Origin: Amorphoplanes friuliensis DSM 7358
GTDB taxonomy: Bacteria > Actinomycetota > Actinomycetes > Mycobacteriales > Micromonosporaceae
Assembly: GCF_000494755.1 (NCBI RefSeq)
Contig: NC_022657.1
Coordinates: 3,262,001 to 3,326,000, forward strand
DNA: 64,000 bases
Direction: 5' to 3'
Shown here piece by piece: positions 7,275 to 43,674 of the stretch. The number at the start of each line of letters is the position of its first letter. Position 1 is the stretch's first letter. The notes under the pieces were generated by a model. That model was not told the DNA's origin. It worked only from the letters and a program-made list of their open reading frames with translations, and searched no databases. The position numbers and the translations under genes were made by a program.

Positions 7275-7940
7275 GTGACGATGCTCTCCACCCAGGTCTA
7301 CGCGGAGCTCCGGGACGCGATTCTGCGCGGTGACTTCGCGCCGGGTGACGCCCTCAAACCCCAGGAGCTGGCGCACCGGCACGGGGTGAGCCTCGCCGTG
7401 GTCCGCGAGGCCCTGACCCGGCTGGTCGGTGACGGCCTGGCCGACCGGCTCGTCAACCGCGGATTTGCCGTGCCGCTGCAGTCCGACCAGCGCTGGCAGG
7501 ACATCGCCGAGGCCCGGCGCACCGTCGAGCCGGTGATGCTGCGGATGGCCATCGACCGTGGCGACCTCGACTGGGAGGCCCGCGTCCGGGCGGCGCACCA
7601 CCGGCTGGCACGGACGCCACCGCTGCAGCCCGGCGAAGGACCGCACGTCAGTGCCGAGTGGTCCCGCGCGCATCACGACTTCCACCGGGCGCTGCTCGAG
7701 GGCTGCGGCAATCCGGTCTTGCTGGAGACCTTCGACCGGCTGTGGCTCGCCAGTGAGCTCAGCCGTCGCTGGTCGGGCGCCGGCAACCCGCACCGCGACT
7801 ACCTCGAGGAGCATCGTCTGCTCGAAGAGGCTGCTCTGGCCCGTGACGCGGGCGCGGCGGCCGGCCTCCTCGAACGCCACGTGACCAGGACCGCCGCAGC
7901 GCTGGTCGCGGGGGAAGCGTCAGGACGGCCGGTCGGCTGA
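7275..7940 (+). CDS. GntR-family regulator, FCD subfamily
   Basis: About 221 aa. The N-terminal winged helix (STQVYAELRDAILRGDFAPGDAL, then HRHGVSLAVVREALTRLVGDGL) is a GntR DNA-binding domain; the C-terminal all-helical FCD domain (RTVEPVMLRMAI, AHHDFHRALLEGCGNPVLLETFDRLW) would bind a small organic acid, often through a metal held by Asp and His. Starts at ATG 7266, GTG 7275 or ATG 7281 are all possible. No Shine-Dalgarno is visible, and TACGAT at 7262-7267 would place the transcript start at or next to GTG 7275, suggesting a leaderless mRNA. Its last 21 bases overlap the converging WYL gene. Confidence 0.88.
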   Translation: MTMLSTQVYAELRDAILRGDFAPGDALKPQELAHRHGVSLAVVREALTRLVGDGLADRLVNRGFAVPLQSDQRWQDIAEARRTVEPVMLRMAIDRGDLDWEARVRAAHHRLARTPPLQPGEGPHVSAEWSRAHHDFHRALLEGCGNPVLLETFDRLWLASELSRRWSGAGNPHRDYLEEHRLLEEAALARDAGAAAGLLERHVTRTAAALVAGEASGRPVG

Positions 7941-29389: not shown

Positions 29390-32122
29390 CTAACTATGGA
29401 GGACCGACGCGAGGTCGGTGAGGACCCAGGGGGACTTGACCGAGGCGGGGTCGAGCTCGGCCGGGCAGCGCACGGCGAAGGTGGTGCTCTCGCCGGGAAG
29501 CAGGGTCACGAAGCCGCGGTCCACCACGGCGTCGGGGTGGATCCGGTCGGGCTGGAGGAGAAGGTCGCGGGCGAGCCCGGCCGACCGCACGTGCACGTCG
29601 AGGCCGCCGGGCACCGGGGTGGCGGTGACGGTCAGCCCCGGGTCGCCCGAGGTTTCCGCGGCGAACCACACGTCGCGCACGTCGTCGAGCCGAGCCACGA
29701 GAAAGTCGGACGGCACCAGGTCCGCCGGCACCGGGACGACCGACACCGAACGGGGTGACACAGAGATCGGTGTTGTCATCGCAGCGATCTCCAGCGACCC
29801 GGCCCAGGGGGCGTCGGTGTCGTTCATGACTGCGACGACCAGTCCGCCGTCACGCGGCTCGATCGACAGCAACCGGTCGGCGTAGAGCGACGTGAGCGCG
29901 AAGTAGAGCGGCTTGAACCGCCCGGCCCCGTCGATCGCCGCCCAGGACGTCACCGGCCACAGATCGTTGAGCTGCCAGAGGATCGTCCCCGCGGTGTGCG
30001 GCCAGTACGACCGCCAATGAGCGATCCCGGTACGCACCGCGCGTACCTGGTTGAGCTGGGTCAGGTAGTGCCAGGCCTCGACGGAATCCGGCGCGGGGAA
30101 GTGGGGCGCGAGTCCACGGGCGAGTTTGCCGTTCCCGTCGTCGGCTTTCTGGTGGTGCAGCACGCCGGGGGAGTCCGGCAGCAGCGGCTCGTCCGACACC
30201 GCGTCACGCAGCGTGCGCCACGCCGGCGGCGCCTGCCAGCCGAACTCGGCCACGAACCGCGGTGTGGAGTCGCGATAATGCACGTAGTCCTGGCGGTTCC
30301 ACACCTCCCACGAGTGGAACGTCTGATGCTCGGGCGAGTTCGGCTCGTGCTCCCACGACCCCGACCACGGGCTCCCCGCCATGTACGGCCGCGACGGATC
30401 CAGCTCGGCGACGATCTCCGGCAGCGTCTCGAGGTAGTACCTCTCACCCCACGTGCTGTCGCCGCCGGGTTCGGTGTCCCAGCCGCTCGCCCGGTACAGC
30501 CAGAGGTTCTCGTTGTTGCCGTTCCACGCGACCAGGCTCGGGTGGGATGACAGCCTGCTCACGTTCTCGCGGGCCTCGGCGACCACTTCGGAGTACAGCG
30601 GCTCCTCCTCGGGATAACAGGCGCACGCGAAGAGGAAGTCCTGCCACACCATCAGCCCGAGCTCGTCGCAGACCTCGTAGAAGTCGCGGCTCTCGTAGAT
30701 GCCGCCGCCCCAGACCCGGATCATGTTCACACCGGCCGCGGCCGCCTGCCCGAGCCGCAGGGCGTAGCGTTCGCGGGTCATCCTCGACGGGAAGATGTCG
30801 TCCGGGATCCAGTTGACGCCCTTGACCAGGACGGGTTTTTGGTTGACGTGGAACACGAAGCCGTCGCCGGACCGGTCGATCTCGACGGAACGGAATCCGG
30901 TGCGCCGTTCCCAGCGGTCCAGTTCAAGGTCGCCGTCGCCGTCGCCGTCGAGCAGCACAACGGTCAGGTCGTAGAGGTTGGCAGCGCCCGGATTCCACGG
31001 CTGCACACCGGGAACGTCGATCCGCACAGGCCCAACTTCCTTGAAGTCGGGCTGTCGCTCGGCCTGCCCGGGCCCAATTTCCTTGAAGTTGCCCATGGGC
31101 TCGCTCGGCTCAGGCCCGACTTCCTTGAAGTTGGGCCTTCGCTCGCCCTGCCCGGGCCCGACTTCCTTGAAGTTGGGCCTTCGCTCATCCGGCACAGGCC
31201 CAACTTCGTTGAAGTTGGGCTGTCGCTCGTCCTGTCCGGGCCCAACTTCGTTGAAGTCGGGCTGTCGCTCTGCCTGCCCAGGCCCAACTTCCTTGAAGTC
31301 GGGCTGTCGCTCAGCCTGCCCGGGCACAACTTCCTTGAAGTCGGGCCTTCGTTCACCCGGCACGGGCACCACCGCGAGTTCGCGGCCGTCGAGCAGCACC
31401 CGCAGCCGCAGCGGCCGGGCCTGAGTGCGTTCCAGGTCAACATCAAGGTCAAGGACACCGACCCCGTCCCGGTACGTGGTGAGCGCACGCACCGACCCGA
31501 GTCGCGCCGTGCTCCAGCCCTCGAGGCGCACCGGGCGCCAGATGCCCGCCGTGACCAGCGTCGGACCCCAGTCCCAGCCGAAGCTGCAGGCCATCTTGCG
31601 GACGTAGTTGAACGGCTCGGGGTACGCGTTGGGCCGGGGGCCGAGCTGTGTCCGTACCGCCTCGGCCTCGGTGTAGGCGGAGGTGAACCGGACCTCGAGC
31701 GGCACCGGATCCGCGCCGACCAGGGAGGTGACGTCGAAGCGGTAGCTGCGGTGCATGTTGCGGGTGGATCCGAGCGCCACCCCGCCGAGCGAGATGTCCG
31801 CGACCGTGTCGAGGCCGTCGAAGACCAGGTCGATGCGCTCGGGCCGGGGCCCGTCCCAGCTGATGTCGCGGGTGTAGGTCCAGTCGGCGCGACCCACCCA
31901 GGCCGCGGCCTTCTCGTTGTCGTCCAGGAACGGGTCGTCGAGCCGACCGGCGTTCATCAGATCGACATGCACGCACCCAGGAACGACCGCCGGAAGGCCC
32001 TCGTCCCCGAGCGACGGCCCACTGAGCGCCGGCCCACTGAGCGCCGGCCCACTGAGCGACGGCCCGCTCAGCGACGGCCCGCTCAGCGTCCACGCCCCGC
32101 CCAGGTCTGCGACCTTGATCAT
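29390..32122 (-). CDS. Beta-mannosidase (GH2) with two internal repeat insertions
   Basis: 910 aa, no signal peptide, so probably cytoplasmic. GH2 beta-mannosidase landmarks are VPGCVHVDLMNAG, MACSFGWDWGPTLVTAGIW, WNGNNENLW (acid/base Glu) and FVAEFGWQAPPAW (nucleophile Glu). Two additions are unusual: residues about 13-38 contain five SGPSL-type repeats, and residues about 253-365, inside the Ig-like domain 2, contain eight 14-residue repeats with an FKEVG core. Relatives normally have a short loop at both places. The start overlaps the permease stop by ATGA. The enzyme would remove terminal beta-mannose from imported manno-oligosaccharides. Confidence 0.92.
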   Translation of the reverse strand: MIKVADLGGAWTLSGPSLSGPSLSGPALSGPALSGPSLGDEGLPAVVPGCVHVDLMNAGRLDDPFLDDNEKAAAWVGRADWTYTRDISWDGPRPERIDLVFDGLDTVADISLGGVALGSTRNMHRSYRFDVTSLVGADPVPLEVRFTSAYTEAEAVRTQLGPRPNAYPEPFNYVRKMACSFGWDWGPTLVTAGIWRPVRLEGWSTARLGSVRALTTYRDGVGVLDLDVDLERTQARPLRLRVLLDGRELAVVPVPGERRPDFKEVVPGQAERQPDFKEVGPGQAERQPDFNEVGPGQDERQPNFNEVGPVPDERRPNFKEVGPGQGERRPNFKEVGPEPSEPMGNFKEIGPGQAERQPDFKEVGPVRIDVPGVQPWNPGAANLYDLTVVLLDGDGDGDLELDRWERRTGFRSVEIDRSGDGFVFHVNQKPVLVKGVNWIPDDIFPSRMTRERYALRLGQAAAAGVNMIRVWGGGIYESRDFYEVCDELGLMVWQDFLFACACYPEEEPLYSEVVAEARENVSRLSSHPSLVAWNGNNENLWLYRASGWDTEPGGDSTWGERYYLETLPEIVAELDPSRPYMAGSPWSGSWEHEPNSPEHQTFHSWEVWNRQDYVHYRDSTPRFVAEFGWQAPPAWRTLRDAVSDEPLLPDSPGVLHHQKADDGNGKLARGLAPHFPAPDSVEAWHYLTQLNQVRAVRTGIAHWRSYWPHTAGTILWQLNDLWPVTSWAAIDGAGRFKPLYFALTSLYADRLLSIEPRDGGLVVAVMNDTDAPWAGSLEIAAMTTPISVSPRSVSVVPVPADLVPSDFLVARLDDVRDVWFAAETSGDPGLTVTATPVPGGLDVHVRSAGLARDLLLQPDRIHPDAVVDRGFVTLLPGESTTFAVRCPAELDPASVKSPWVLTDLASVLHS
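31029..31364. repeat. Eight tandem 42-bp units with internal palindrome, translated in the beta-mannosidase
   Basis: Units begin at 31029, 31071, 31113, 31155, 31197, 31239, 31281 and 31323, exactly 42 bases apart, so the frame is kept (14 residues, typified by PGQAERQPDFKEVG). Each unit begins with a hairpin: arms GGCCCAACTTC and GAAGTTGGGCC around a 3-base loop in the best copies. Unit 2 (31071) is the most diverged (MGNFKEIG). Confidence 0.95.
32009..32083. repeat. Five tandem 15-bp units near the beta-mannosidase start
   Basis: Five copies of a 15-base unit (consensus GAGCGACGGCCCACT on the plus strand) encode SGPSL or SGPAL. They fall between the first strand (AWTL) and GLPAVVPGC of the sugar-binding domain. 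Copies differ by one or two bases. Confidence 0.92.
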
Positions 32123-38594: not shown

Positions 38595-39014
38595 ATGAAG
38601 GTTGTGAAGCTGGCCGCCGGTATGGCGATCGGGTACGTGCTCGGGAGCCGCGCCGGCCGCGAGAAGTACGAGCAGATCGTGGAGACCGTGCGGAAGGTGA
38701 ACAACCAGCCGGGTGTGGTCCGCGCGAAGGAGAAGGCCACGGAGGAGGTCGGCGCGAAGCCGGCCGGCAGCACCCCCGAGCCCAAGGCCGCGACCCCGTC
38801 CGAGCCGAAGCCGGCACCGACGTCCGAGCCCAAGGCCGCGACCACGTCCGAGCCCAAGGCAACGTCCGAGCCCAAGGCTACGTCCGAGCCGAAGTCGACG
38901 ACCACGTCCGAGCCGAAGGCCGACGCCGTTCCGCGGCCGCCGCGCCGTAAGCCGGCGGCGGCGACCACGACGACCACGGTCGTCACCCCCGCGGACGCCT
39001 CACCCCTGGTCTGA
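38595..39014 (+). CDS. YtxH-like protein with EPK-repeat tail
   Basis: 139 aa from ATG 38595 with GAGGAG upstream. The first 30 residues (KVVKLAAGMAIGYVLGSRAGREKYEQIVETVRKV) are a glycine-rich amphipathic or membrane-inserting helix seen in actinobacterial YtxH-like stress proteins. Residues 61-109 hold seven EPK units (bases 38775-38921), mostly spaced 6 or 8 residues apart. The tail is rich in Pro, Arg, Ala and Thr. It may anchor to the membrane and extend through or along the wall; this is inference. It converges with the regulator at 39016. Confidence 0.6.
   Translation: MKVVKLAAGMAIGYVLGSRAGREKYEQIVETVRKVNNQPGVVRAKEKATEEVGAKPAGSTPEPKAATPSEPKPAPTSEPKAATTSEPKATSEPKATSEPKSTTTSEPKADAVPRPPRRKPAAATTTTTVVTPADASPLV
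38775..38921. repeat. Degenerate Pro-Lys-rich repeat in the YtxH-like gene
   Basis: Seven copies of the triplet EPK embedded in TSEPKA or TPSEPK units, with codons drawn from ACGTCCGAGCCCAAGG and close variants, a region prone to slippage. Confidence 0.75.
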
Positions 39015-40949: not shown

Positions 40950-43674
40950 GCTCGGTGGTCGCTTTCAGCTGGGCGAGCTCGAGGGCGGCCCGGCGGGGGT
41001 CGCCCGCCCAGCGGCTGGCGAAGGCATCGGCCAGGCGCCACCCGGCACGGTGCAGTGCCTGCCGGCGGGCGAGATGGGCGCCGGTGCCGTCGGGATGAAC
41101 CTCGCAGAAGACGCCGATCGGTGCCTCCGCCGGGCCGATGCACAGATCGATCGTCCACGGTCCCACCGCATAGCGGGGACGGACCTCCACCTCGAGGCGC
41201 CGCAGTTCCTCGTGCAGGGCGGCCGGCCACGGGTTCGCCTCGACGACCTCCTGACCCGCGGGCCCGGGTGGGGTGTCCGCGTAGGTCAGGTAGTCGGCGA
41301 GCAGGCCGTCCGGCGTACCGAGGGAGGTGACCACGACCATGCGGTGACGCGCCCGGGTGACCATCACGTTGAACAGGTGGGGGTCGGCGACGAAACGGCG
41401 CCGGCCGGCCGGGTCGCCGGGCAGCAGGCCGAGGGAGACCACCACCACGTCGGCCTCGCTGCCCTGGAAGGCGTGCACCGTGCCGACCCGCAGGCCCAGC
41501 TCCTCGATGCGGTCCACCGGGTACGCCGCGACCAGCGCGGCTTCGAGGGCCTCGGCCTGGGCGCGGAACGGCGAGATGACCGCGATGCTGCGCGTTCCCG
41601 CCCCGGCCTGGGCGGCGACGACCTCCAGGACCGCCGCGACCTCGGCCGCGAGTGATCCCGGGGCGGGGACCCGGACCACGTCGATCCCGTCCGCGACCTC
41701 GGCCGCGAGTGATCCCGGGGCGGGGACCCGGACCACGTCGATCCCGTCCGCGAGCTCGGCGGCCGGTGTCCTGGTCATCACCGCGACCCGGTCGTCGTAG
41801 AAGCGGCGGGCCGAGAAGCCGATCAGATGCGGCGTGCTGCGGTGGTGCTCGGCCAGCCAGGTGGCCGGTGCGGCCGCCGTGGCCAGGTCGTAGGTGCTCA
41901 CCCGGCGGACGTCCAGCCGGTCGTCGGCGTCGTGGCGGGCGAGGACCTCGTTGATGTCGACGGTGCTGACGAACGACACGAACCGCAGCTGGCGGGGGTC
42001 GCCGACGATCAGCGCACGCCGGGCGCGGGCCAGCACCGGGGCTGCGCGCACCTGGTCCACGTGGGAGGCCTCGTCGATCACCACCAGGTCGAACAGGCCG
42101 GGCGCGGCGGGCAGCAGGTCCTCCACGTCGGCGACCGTGCCGATCCACAACGGCAGTGCGCGGACCAGCGGCGCGGCGTCCATGCGGGCGAGCAGTTCGC
42201 GGCGCTGGTTGCGCCCGGCCCGCAGCGCCGTGGCCAGTGCGGCGACCCCGCGCCGCGCCTCGCGGTCCCAGCGTTTCTCGCTGCGGGCGGCGCGGCGCAT
42301 CGCCTCACCGGCGGTCCGGGCCAGTCCGTCCTCGAGGTACCGCAGCGTGCTCCAGCGCCGGTCCAGGTCGGTGCCGCCGGTCGCGGCGAGACGGGCGGCG
42401 GACAGCTGGGCGGCGGCCGCGGTGAGCGCCGCACGCACTCTCTCCGCCGGCACCCCACCGCGTACGCCCAGACGGCGCCTCGCCCACCAGCCGCGCAGCC
42501 CCGGGCGGTCGAAGTCGTCCGTCCGCACACCGGTGAACGCGCCGGGCACGTCGGCGGCCAGCTCGGGCAGCAGCGGCTCCCAGCGCGGGAGGGCGGCCGC
42601 CCGGACCTCCTCGTCGAGGGCTTCGGTGATGCGGGCGCGTTCCTGGCCGACGCCCCTGAGGGCGAGCTGGACGCTGTCGGCATCCGCGCGCAGCTCCCGG
42701 TCGCTGTAACCACGGTCGGCGCCGGCGGCGAGCTGGGCGGCGAGGTCGTCGCGGCGCTGCGCGTCGCCGAAGAGGACCGGAACCGGGCCCGGGTACCGGC
42801 CCAGCAGGGACGCCAGCACCTCGGCGGCGTGCGGCGACTGCGTCGCGACCAGCACCGATCCGCCGCGGTGCACCACCTCCAGGGCCGCGGCGACCACGGT
42901 GTGGCTCTTGCCGTTGCCGGGCGGCCCGGAGACCACGGTGACCGGCGCCGTCCGGACCCGGGCGACCACCCGCGCCTGCGCTTCGGTGAGCGGGAGCGGT
43001 GAGACCACCGGGGTGTCGTCGCTGCGATCGGTGCGCTCGTCGCCGTAGACGGCGGCCAGCGCCGTGCCGCTCAGGTCCCGCCGGGACCAGGTGCGCAAGC
43101 TGTCGGCCAGGCCGGGCCCGTACACGTCGCGCACCACGAAGAGGCCGGCCGTCGCGACCAGCACGATCCGGTCGTTCGGGAGCTTGCGGCGGTCCGCGAC
43201 CACCGCGTCGACCGGCAGCCCGGTCGCTTGGGCAGCCGACCACAGCCAGGCCCGGCTGCCGATGGCGTCGAGCCACCCCGGCGCGGCCAGCCCCGGCGCC
43301 GCCTCGAACGCGGCGGCCAGTTGCCGGTCGGCGACCAGCGGGGTGATCTCGACGTCACCGATCGGCACCACGCGGTACCCGGTGAGTCCCCGTTCGAGCT
43401 GGACCGGCTGGCTCATCAGGGGCACCCGGACCTTGCGGACCTTGCCGTCGACCTCGGTCCGGCCGGCGAGGAAGCCCCAGCCGCGGCGCAGGATCCGTTC
43501 GTCGCGGTGCAGGGCCGCCAGGGCGGCCAGGCGGTCGGTCTCGGCCCGGCGCGGCGCCCGCTCGGCGTCGTCGAGCCAGGCGAGCGGCTGCCCGCCGCGG
43601 GTCACGTCCAGCACCCGGTCGGCGCCGGCCGGTGCCAGCTCGGCCAGGACGGCGAGAACGGTGGACGGCAGCAT
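40933..43674 (-). CDS. SF1 helicase (Dna2/NAM7 type) with C-terminal Vsr/MTES_1575-like nuclease domain
   Basis: 913 aa from ATG 43674. Walker A GPPGNGKSHT, motif Ia VLVATQSPHAAEVL, Walker B DLVVIDEASHVDQ, motif III IVGDPRQLRFV, motif V VGTVHAFQGSEADVVVVSL and motif VI VMVTRARHRMVVV make a complete UPF1-like SF1 motor. The last 90 residues (YAVGPWTIDLCIGPAEAP, GVFCEVH, RRQALHRAGWRLADAFAS) look like a Vsr/DUF559-type PD-(D/E)xK nuclease. The first 200 residues are an unrecognised domain. The combination is frequent in anti-phage proteins such as Hhe, but no partner gene is present. A 57-bp duplication sits inside. Confidence 0.82.
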   Translation of the reverse strand: MLPSTVLAVLAELAPAGADRVLDVTRGGQPLAWLDDAERAPRRAETDRLAALAALHRDERILRRGWGFLAGRTEVDGKVRKVRVPLMSQPVQLERGLTGYRVVPIGDVEITPLVADRQLAAAFEAAPGLAAPGWLDAIGSRAWLWSAAQATGLPVDAVVADRRKLPNDRIVLVATAGLFVVRDVYGPGLADSLRTWSRRDLSGTALAAVYGDERTDRSDDTPVVSPLPLTEAQARVVARVRTAPVTVVSGPPGNGKSHTVVAAALEVVHRGGSVLVATQSPHAAEVLASLLGRYPGPVPVLFGDAQRRDDLAAQLAAGADRGYSDRELRADADSVQLALRGVGQERARITEALDEEVRAAALPRWEPLLPELAADVPGAFTGVRTDDFDRPGLRGWWARRRLGVRGGVPAERVRAALTAAAAQLSAARLAATGGTDLDRRWSTLRYLEDGLARTAGEAMRRAARSEKRWDREARRGVAALATALRAGRNQRRELLARMDAAPLVRALPLWIGTVADVEDLLPAAPGLFDLVVIDEASHVDQVRAAPVLARARRALIVGDPRQLRFVSFVSTVDINEVLARHDADDRLDVRRVSTYDLATAAAPATWLAEHHRSTPHLIGFSARRFYDDRVAVMTRTPAAELADGIDVVRVPAPGSLAAEVADGIDVVRVPAPGSLAAEVAAVLEVVAAQAGAGTRSIAVISPFRAQAEALEAALVAAYPVDRIEELGLRVGTVHAFQGSEADVVVVSLGLLPGDPAGRRRFVADPHLFNVMVTRARHRMVVVTSLGTPDGLLADYLTYADTPPGPAGQEVVEANPWPAALHEELRRLEVEVRPRYAVGPWTIDLCIGPAEAPIGVFCEVHPDGTGAHLARRQALHRAGWRLADAFASRWAGDPRRAALELAQLKATTELTPGD
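41641..41754. repeat. 57-bp tandem duplication inside the helicase gene
   Basis: Bases 41641-41697 and 41698-41754 are identical except for the final base (C versus G). In frame it gives two copies of a 19-residue unit, ADGIDVVRVPAPGSLAAEV. Near-identity at DNA level means a recent event. Confidence 0.95.

Follow-up and report, generated by a model that had tools for sequence, protein, structure and literature searches.

In this work we analysed 64,000 nucleotides of the genome of Amorphoplanes friuliensis DSM 7358 (the window, whose numbering is used for all positions given without a locus name) and focused on an array of eight palindromic 42-bp units lying in frame within a gene for a glycoside hydrolase family 2 (GH2) beta-mannosidase. 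The palindrome belongs to a family found at hundreds of sites in this genome, mostly as tandem arrays between genes, and nearly private to the species. We consider it likely that one unit or a short run of this dispersed family was captured in a loop of the enzyme and then grew in place, with the reading frame kept and the insert tolerated. The genome under study (9.38 Mb) is designated G000; other genomes bear G numbers and the loci that were fetched bear L numbers.

The eight-unit array and its host gene

The array covers positions 31029-31364 and is read on the minus strand, in frame with its host gene (29390..32122, minus strand), which starts with an ATG at 32122, has AAGGAG upstream and encodes 910 amino acids. 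The units begin at 31029, 31071, 31113, 31155, 31197, 31239, 31281 and 31323, and Tandem Repeats Finder (TRF), run on its own, gave 7.6 copies with 82% matches. The palindromes of units 1 to 8 lie at 31029..31053 (9 of 11 arm positions paired), 31071..31095 (7 of 11, the most decayed unit), 31113..31137 (10), 31155..31179 (10), 31197..31221 (10, with the exact core CCCAACTTCGTTGAAGTTGGG), 31239..31263 (9), 31281..31305 (9) and 31323..31347 (9). In the protein the array corresponds to approximately residues 254-366, each unit reading roughly E-R-[RQ]-P-[DN]-F-[KN]-E-V-G-P-x-x-x.

The host protein shows the Pfam domains Glyco_hydro_2_N2 (residues 42-196), Glyco_hydro_2 (362-411, a match spanning only profile positions 68-109 of 109) and Glyco_hydro_2_C (423-579). 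It also contains NGNNEN at 534 and AEFGWQ at 625, which we take to be the motifs of the acid/base and nucleophile catalytic glutamates. This three-domain GH2 architecture, together with both expected active-site motifs, identifies the enzyme as a GH2 beta-mannosidase. The Ig-like domain is interrupted by the insert, which has the N-terminal sugar-binding domain (42-196) on one side and the TIM barrel (423 onwards) on the other. The beta-mannosidase 5n6u, the best solved relative, has 41 residues in place of the 136 found here, as counted from two aligned stretches.

A GH2 match was found in all 67 genomes of the genus that were searched, G000 included. Besides G000, 39 genomes each contributed one orthologue to the alignment (L072-L110); the remaining 27 of the 66 had lower-scoring matches. 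The array is absent from all 39, which have a short loop at that place, and the insert adds about 112 amino acids relative to them. A preliminary description of this DNA had claimed eight units of exactly 42 bases, each opening with a hairpin, a 14-residue repeat placed in the Ig-like domain where relatives have a short loop, and amplification with the frame kept. The number and length of the units are borne out by the sequence and by TRF; all seven intervals are exactly 42 bp, which also supports the amplification in frame, and the 39 orthologues agree with the placement in the protein. The hairpin arms hold for the consensus, whereas none of the eight units has all 11 positions paired (7 to 10 of 11).

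Among the orthologues examined, repeats made of a dispersed palindrome occur in the GH2 gene of G000 only. Unrelated in-frame repeats are carried elsewhere in this gene by three species: G222 has a 30-bp period and, close to the C terminus, periods of 15/30/60 bp; G194 has a 51-bp repeat; and in G230 a 60-bp repeat lies close to the C terminus. The GH2 gene tolerates tandem repeats generally, and loop expansion may have a hot spot in this enzyme. The repeats of these other species sit at L101:6023-6259 and 7732-7935, L102:6494-6854 and L103:6682-6943. A second in-frame tandem repeat (15 bp × 5.3, SGP[SA]L) is also present in the A. friuliensis gene itself, at window positions 32009-32088, near the N terminus and ahead of the sugar-binding domain.

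A dispersed palindrome family at gene ends

The core CCCAACTTC-NNN-GAAGTTGGG was found at 607 sites in G000 with up to two mismatches, and at none in the reversed control. With up to five mismatches, the first 822,546 bases fetched (window included) gave 640 core sites, against 11 in reversed DNA, all 11 with five mismatches. The genomic context was seen for 501 of the 607 sites, in 1,191,534 fetched bases, the other 106 lying outside the fetched DNA. In these bases, counting sites with up to five mismatches, there were 54 clusters of at least four units, the largest of 28, and 31 lone sites. The usual unit is 41-42 bp long with the core CCCAACTTC-AAG-GAAGTCGGG; among 440 neighbour intervals of up to 60 bp, the two in-gene arrays excluded, 227 were of 41 bp and 150 of 42 bp. 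That the GH2 array is an ordinary tandem repeat private to its locus and palindromic by accident is therefore extremely improbable: the core recurs at hundreds of G000 sites and at very few elsewhere, and the genome-wide count contradicts such an origin, although tandem repeats within genes are frequent in this genus, where they made up 17 of the 47 arrays sampled over 400 kb of G170 and 11 of the 19 sampled over 300 kb of G000.

The cores repeat from array to array and, in the 11 loci inspected, the spacers are array-specific; alternating units are visible by eye in some of the arrays inspected. Judged by its repeats and spacers, the family was not taken for CRISPR, since its spacers are of approximately 12-20 bp and often common within one array, while the cores vary. 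The state of the fourth core position is linked to the centre, A..C going with AAG-type triplets (159 vs 36) and G..T with CTT-type triplets (57 vs 30), and the unit is therefore best described as an oriented imperfect palindrome. Double changes at this position were fewer than expected within arrays (28 vs 42.5, with none of 2000 permutations as low). Selection on a protein half-site was considered for this position and dropped, unit orientation being the simpler reading.

The position of the arrays was evaluated with our own codon-based gene models, which are not the official annotation; gaps shorter than 30 bp were excluded and single hits with more than two mismatches were dropped. The G000 arrays fetched sit mostly between genes, with 56 array-bearing gaps as compared to two in-gene arrays. 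In 47 loci, the array-bearing gaps comprised 31 convergent, 23 tandem and 2 divergent ones, as opposed to 26, 207 and 127 for the other gaps of the same loci (odds ratio for convergent gaps 15.9, p = 2e-16). Among five further array loci, convergent gaps hold four, and the fifth (L268) is between genes of the same direction. At L065:7998-8984, 22 units were detected with spacings all of 42 or 84 bp, and the plus-strand PNFxEVGP frame is open over more than 330 codons. This array lies between two minus-strand genes and was assigned to neither; it may be an unrecognised coding array.

One G000 array lies downstream of a principal-type sigma factor gene (Pfam sigma-70 regions 1.2-4), with 15 sites in 1.5 kb. 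None of 29 relatives (of 66), for which the stretch downstream of the sigma gene was fetched, carries the core there, and some of them carry other tandem repeats at this place. In the same gap the sister species G164 has a different, nested-palindrome unit of 63-64 bp, with 123 matches in G164 and none in four other relatives tested. Loci L212-L231 represent this second family of dispersed tandem arrays. Its arrays with a period of 55-70 bp (24 in 20 regions) occupy 13 convergent, 8 tandem and 3 divergent gaps, versus 14, 77 and 37 for the other gaps (p = 7e-6); leaving out two seemingly unrelated repeats, the split is 12, 8 and 2 (p = 1.3e-5). A private array family with a convergent bias thus recurs in two species of the genus, G000 and G164.

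Common landing sites of the two families were also looked for. One clear case (L223/L030) was found among 19 other regions, which by a rough estimate is no more than expected by chance; this count leaves out the sigma gap, chosen beforehand, and a weaker candidate, L215/L033, which has 57% identity and lacks direct adjacency in L033. In G170, many tandem repeats were seen, but just three cross-locus links among 47 arrays (400-kb sample), and a dispersed family was not retained for this genome. A 42-bp intergenic array of G230 turned out to be confined to a single locus, and the enolase neighbourhood was given up for a synteny comparison owing to insufficient conservation.

The preference for gene ends could mean that the intergenic arrays are selected as putative repeated binding sites at convergent ends, for gyrase or a nucleoid protein for example, as proposed for bacterial interspersed mosaic elements (BIMEs), the in-gene copy being a by-product. 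A period of 41-42 bp is close to four helical turns and the spacing is regular, cores recur across arrays with different spacers, and the convergent bias is seen in two species with unrelated units. However, insertions merely tolerated away from promoters would give the same bias, picking sites by their core inflates the conservation of the core, and families private to a species are not what a fixed protein site would lead one to expect. We regard this explanation as unlikely.

Alternatively, the arrays might act as RNA hairpins, terminating transcripts or stabilising the 3' ends of the mRNAs of the flanking genes. Such a role agrees with arrays that sit between genes and rarely at divergent starts, and the RNA of the window array has a stable predicted fold (-197.6 kcal/mol, z = -11.3 against 100 shuffles), from which an effect on mRNA folding is predicted. 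Covariation was evaluated over 13 arm positions in the 640 sites. At one outer position, outside the 21-bp core, double changes reached 55 versus 39.7 expected, 38 of them paired; the other 12 positions gave no clear compensatory excess, and the fourth core position has fewer double changes than expected. Compensatory changes thus support the hairpin weakly at best, and hairpin selection argued from them was not retained. On the transcript side, G-U was more frequent than A-C in same-direction contexts (95 vs 54 units), but units within an array are not independent, and counted per array the figures are 13 and 8, two in-gene arrays included. No Rfam family was found on the arrays of the four loci tested. 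Altogether, a function as RNA hairpins appears quite unlikely. Rfam did identify a c-di-GMP-II-GAG riboswitch at L049:1383-1467 (plus strand).

Probable capture and growth in place

In the sequence of events that we favour, one unit or a short run would have landed in the loop of the Ig-like domain, in a stop-free frame reading P-N-F-x-E-V-G-P. Unequal recombination or replication slippage would then have expanded this seed on site into eight units of 42 bp. Selection for an intact enzyme would have retained only units with a length divisible by three, and the insert would be tolerated as a flexible loop. We infer this order of events, as well as the growth by recombination or slippage, the surface position of the insert and its neutrality. 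The mean best identity of the in-gene units to each other is 0.89 (just 0.74 for unit 2), whereas 63 other arrays, compared with the in-gene units in both orientations, reach 0.82 at best (L052), with a median of 0.70. On average the in-gene units resemble each other more than they resemble other arrays, which makes it probable that the array expanded on site from a captured unit.

A second in-gene array points to the same role of the reading frame. It consists of five units at L059:7690-7860, in frame within a predicted gene (L059:6832-8235, minus strand, a 468-codon open reading frame) which shows coding signal to either side of its array and has a tail resembling CysS_C, with a match below the Pfam cut-off. 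Its spacings are 36, 39, 36 and 39 bp and its peptide frame is that of the GH2 array; both read P-N-F-x-E-V-G-P, one of the two stop-free frames per strand. When arrays with at least four intervals each were compared, all spacings were multiples of three in both in-gene arrays and in 4 of 45 others (p = 0.014).

Several points weigh against capture followed by growth in place. L052 is close to the in-gene units (0.82, with single units up to 0.857), although its 27-bp period inflates a comparison based on 42 bp, and the evidence does not fully distinguish growth in place from the import of a ready-made array or from gene conversion. Selection on the frame rests on small numbers, the clear in-gene cases being two, and the arrays of L052, L057, L063:8726 and L065 also have spacings that are all multiples of three, none of them having been placed in a gene. 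Changes at codon positions 1, 2 and 3 amount to 0.153, 0.071 and 0.122 in the window array, 0.143, 0 and 0.157 in L059, and 0.162, 0.117 and 0.178 in 44 other arrays; they do not clearly point to selection on the peptide, and the low value at the second position, common to both genes, is at most a hint. Finally, a mobilising enzyme was not found.

The low second codon positions, the frame kept over eight units and the different in-frame repeats found in a nearby loop of the same gene in G222 (30 bp) and G194 (51 bp) would also fit an adaptive addition to the enzyme, such as a linker or a binding module. On the other hand, the palindrome yields the same peptide in the unrelated gene of L059 and in intergenic frames, the repeat is lacking in every aligned orthologue, changes are not concentrated at third positions, and no structure was predicted from the single sequence. 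Modelled alone in this way, the array peptide was without secondary structure (mean pLDDT 60), a model that is uninformative. We therefore hold an adaptive repeat to be very unlikely and favour a tolerated passenger whose frame is kept by selection on the enzyme, as the codon changes are without clear peptide selection and the peptide is without predicted structure.

Two tandem repeats were also noted elsewhere in the window, one of 57 bp at 41610-41760 within a predicted large minus-strand gene, and one of 18/24/42 bp at 38762-38921 within a predicted short plus-strand gene.

Distribution and comparison with known repeat systems

The near restriction of the family to A. friuliensis is apparent from 300 genomes of the bacterial family, in which cores with up to one mismatch were found in five: 335 in G000, 10 in G005, 5 in G001, 2 in G174 and 1 in G266 (353 in total). 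In a collection of 84,980 species, from which G000 itself was possibly left out, the exact core occurs in 13 stretches from scattered phyla, and no 41-bp spacing of the core was seen in the stretches examined. Two of the loci fetched (L113 and L118, from a metagenome-assembled genome, MAG, of Candidatus Kuenenia) carry CAACTTC/CAGCTTC palindromes at intervals of 146-169 bp, another palindromic array in an unrelated phylum. In the Nitrospinales MAG nzgw265 (L114, L115, L121 and L123) the core palindrome lies near the ends of four contigs, which fits an assembly broken by a dispersed repeat. Spread by phage or plasmid was rejected, with no exact core in viral contigs and no plasmid match to the array.

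G001 has a few cores at 42-bp spacing. In G005, a member of another genus, the same 14 arm bases form 17 inverted doublets at 41-42 bp, which are self-complementary at 0.68-0.81 and resemble REPINs, the doublet form of repetitive extragenic palindromic (REP) sequences. Of the 438 neighbouring pairs in G000, 35 reach the self-complementarity of the lowest-scoring G005 doublet (at least 0.68), and 17 have a spacer more than 60% self-complementary. Given the G005 doublets and these self-complementary pairs, an older doublet may have been the ancestor of the unit and have turned into a tandem array in A. friuliensis.

These doublets and pairs also agree with a strict REP/REPIN family, that is, an inverted palindrome doublet mobilised by a REP-associated tyrosine transposase (RAYT), the arrays being secondary expansions. 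The gene-orientation bias and the in-gene cases are likewise in line with REPs as described in parts of PMC3733652. Beside the 551 units evaluated, GTAG stood on the left of 31 and on the right of 6 (expected 13), and CTAC on the left of 10 and on the right of 47 (expected 14), so that GTAG/CTAC exceed expectation (31 and 47 vs approximately 13-14). However, such a tag accompanies fewer than one tenth of the units on either side, and CGTC (26 and 26, expected 65) and GACG (37 and 23, expected 64) fall below expectation. Matches to PF01797 (Y1_Tnp) in G000 consist of four partial ones in three places, truncated or frame-split, without a core within their 3-kb loci. None was found in G001, G005 (69% complete), G174 or G230, and four partial ones were found in G266, which has one core. 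A RAYT/Y1 transposase was accordingly rejected as mobiliser, and a strict REPIN family seems improbable to us. Most likely, the unit behaves like a REP/BIME system served in G000 by an activity other than an intact RAYT.

More broadly, it is possible, if doubtful, that species of this genus each carry their own fast-replaced 'satellite' DNA, one private palindromic unit per species, reaching dozens of gene ends in the form of tandem arrays without a RAYT, with some gaps held by unrelated families in sister species and with occasional in-frame capture giving new protein loops. Since two species of one genus carry unrelated private families with the same convergent bias, the turnover of repeat families between relatives could be followed.

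Among actinobacteria, the mycobacterial interspersed repetitive units (MIRUs) are one family of tandem repeats at many intergenic loci; they are not palindromic and lie mainly between genes of the same direction. The G000 family resembles them in its many intergenic loci and differs in that its unit is palindromic. No report of the family was found in the open-licence literature, partly among top matches only.

Rickettsia palindromic elements (RPEs), described in part of PMC10969869 as being of approximately 150 bp with 44 insertions in R. conorii genes, likewise place palindromic DNA in frame within ordinary genes, where it is translated, as in the GH2 and L059 genes. As far as this part of the source goes, the G000 family is set apart by length, its units being of 41-42 bp, arranged in arrays and with two clear in-gene cases. 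PARCELs, 25-residue amphipathic tandem repeats whose coding DNA has dyad symmetry and which occur in open reading frames of many clades (PMC2996958, in part), share the tandem, dyad-symmetric coding DNA; the G000 repeat encodes 14 residues, is mainly non-coding and belongs to nearly one species.

A close likeness is also seen to REPs, REPINs and BIMEs, which, in the portions of PMC3733652 and PMC3116915 used here, are short palindromes that number in the hundreds, form families restricted to one species or a small group, and are sometimes present in genes. According to the same portion of PMC3733652, REPs are intergenic, biased to convergent and same-direction gene pairs and clustered at times, and their in-gene clusters encode 43-82 amino acids; the text of that paper does not contain the words Actinobacteria, Streptomyces or Frankia. 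The G000 family shares with REPs a palindrome of 20-40 bp in high copy number and mainly between genes. It differs from REPs, REPINs and BIMEs in that it occurs mostly as tandem arrays with a spacing of 41-42 bp and clusters reaching 28 units, from REPs and REPINs in the lack of a general GTAG/CGTC tag and of any intact RAYT found, and from the REPs of that portion of PMC3733652 in the length of its GH2 array (approximately 112 versus 43-82 amino acids). The earlier idea of a REP-type element captured by a gene thus stands as to a REP-like palindrome, with its mostly intergenic core sites, and fails as to a standard REP; as a general tag is lacking and no intact RAYT was found, we do not file the family as a member of REP/REPIN, although it is REP/BIME-like. 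Intragenic REPs are already known, and the array described here represents a REP-like system in which no mobiliser was recognised and tandem arrays predominate. Its in-gene arrays directly exemplify how palindromes that are mostly non-coding become protein, and dozens of frame-free intergenic arrays serve as controls.

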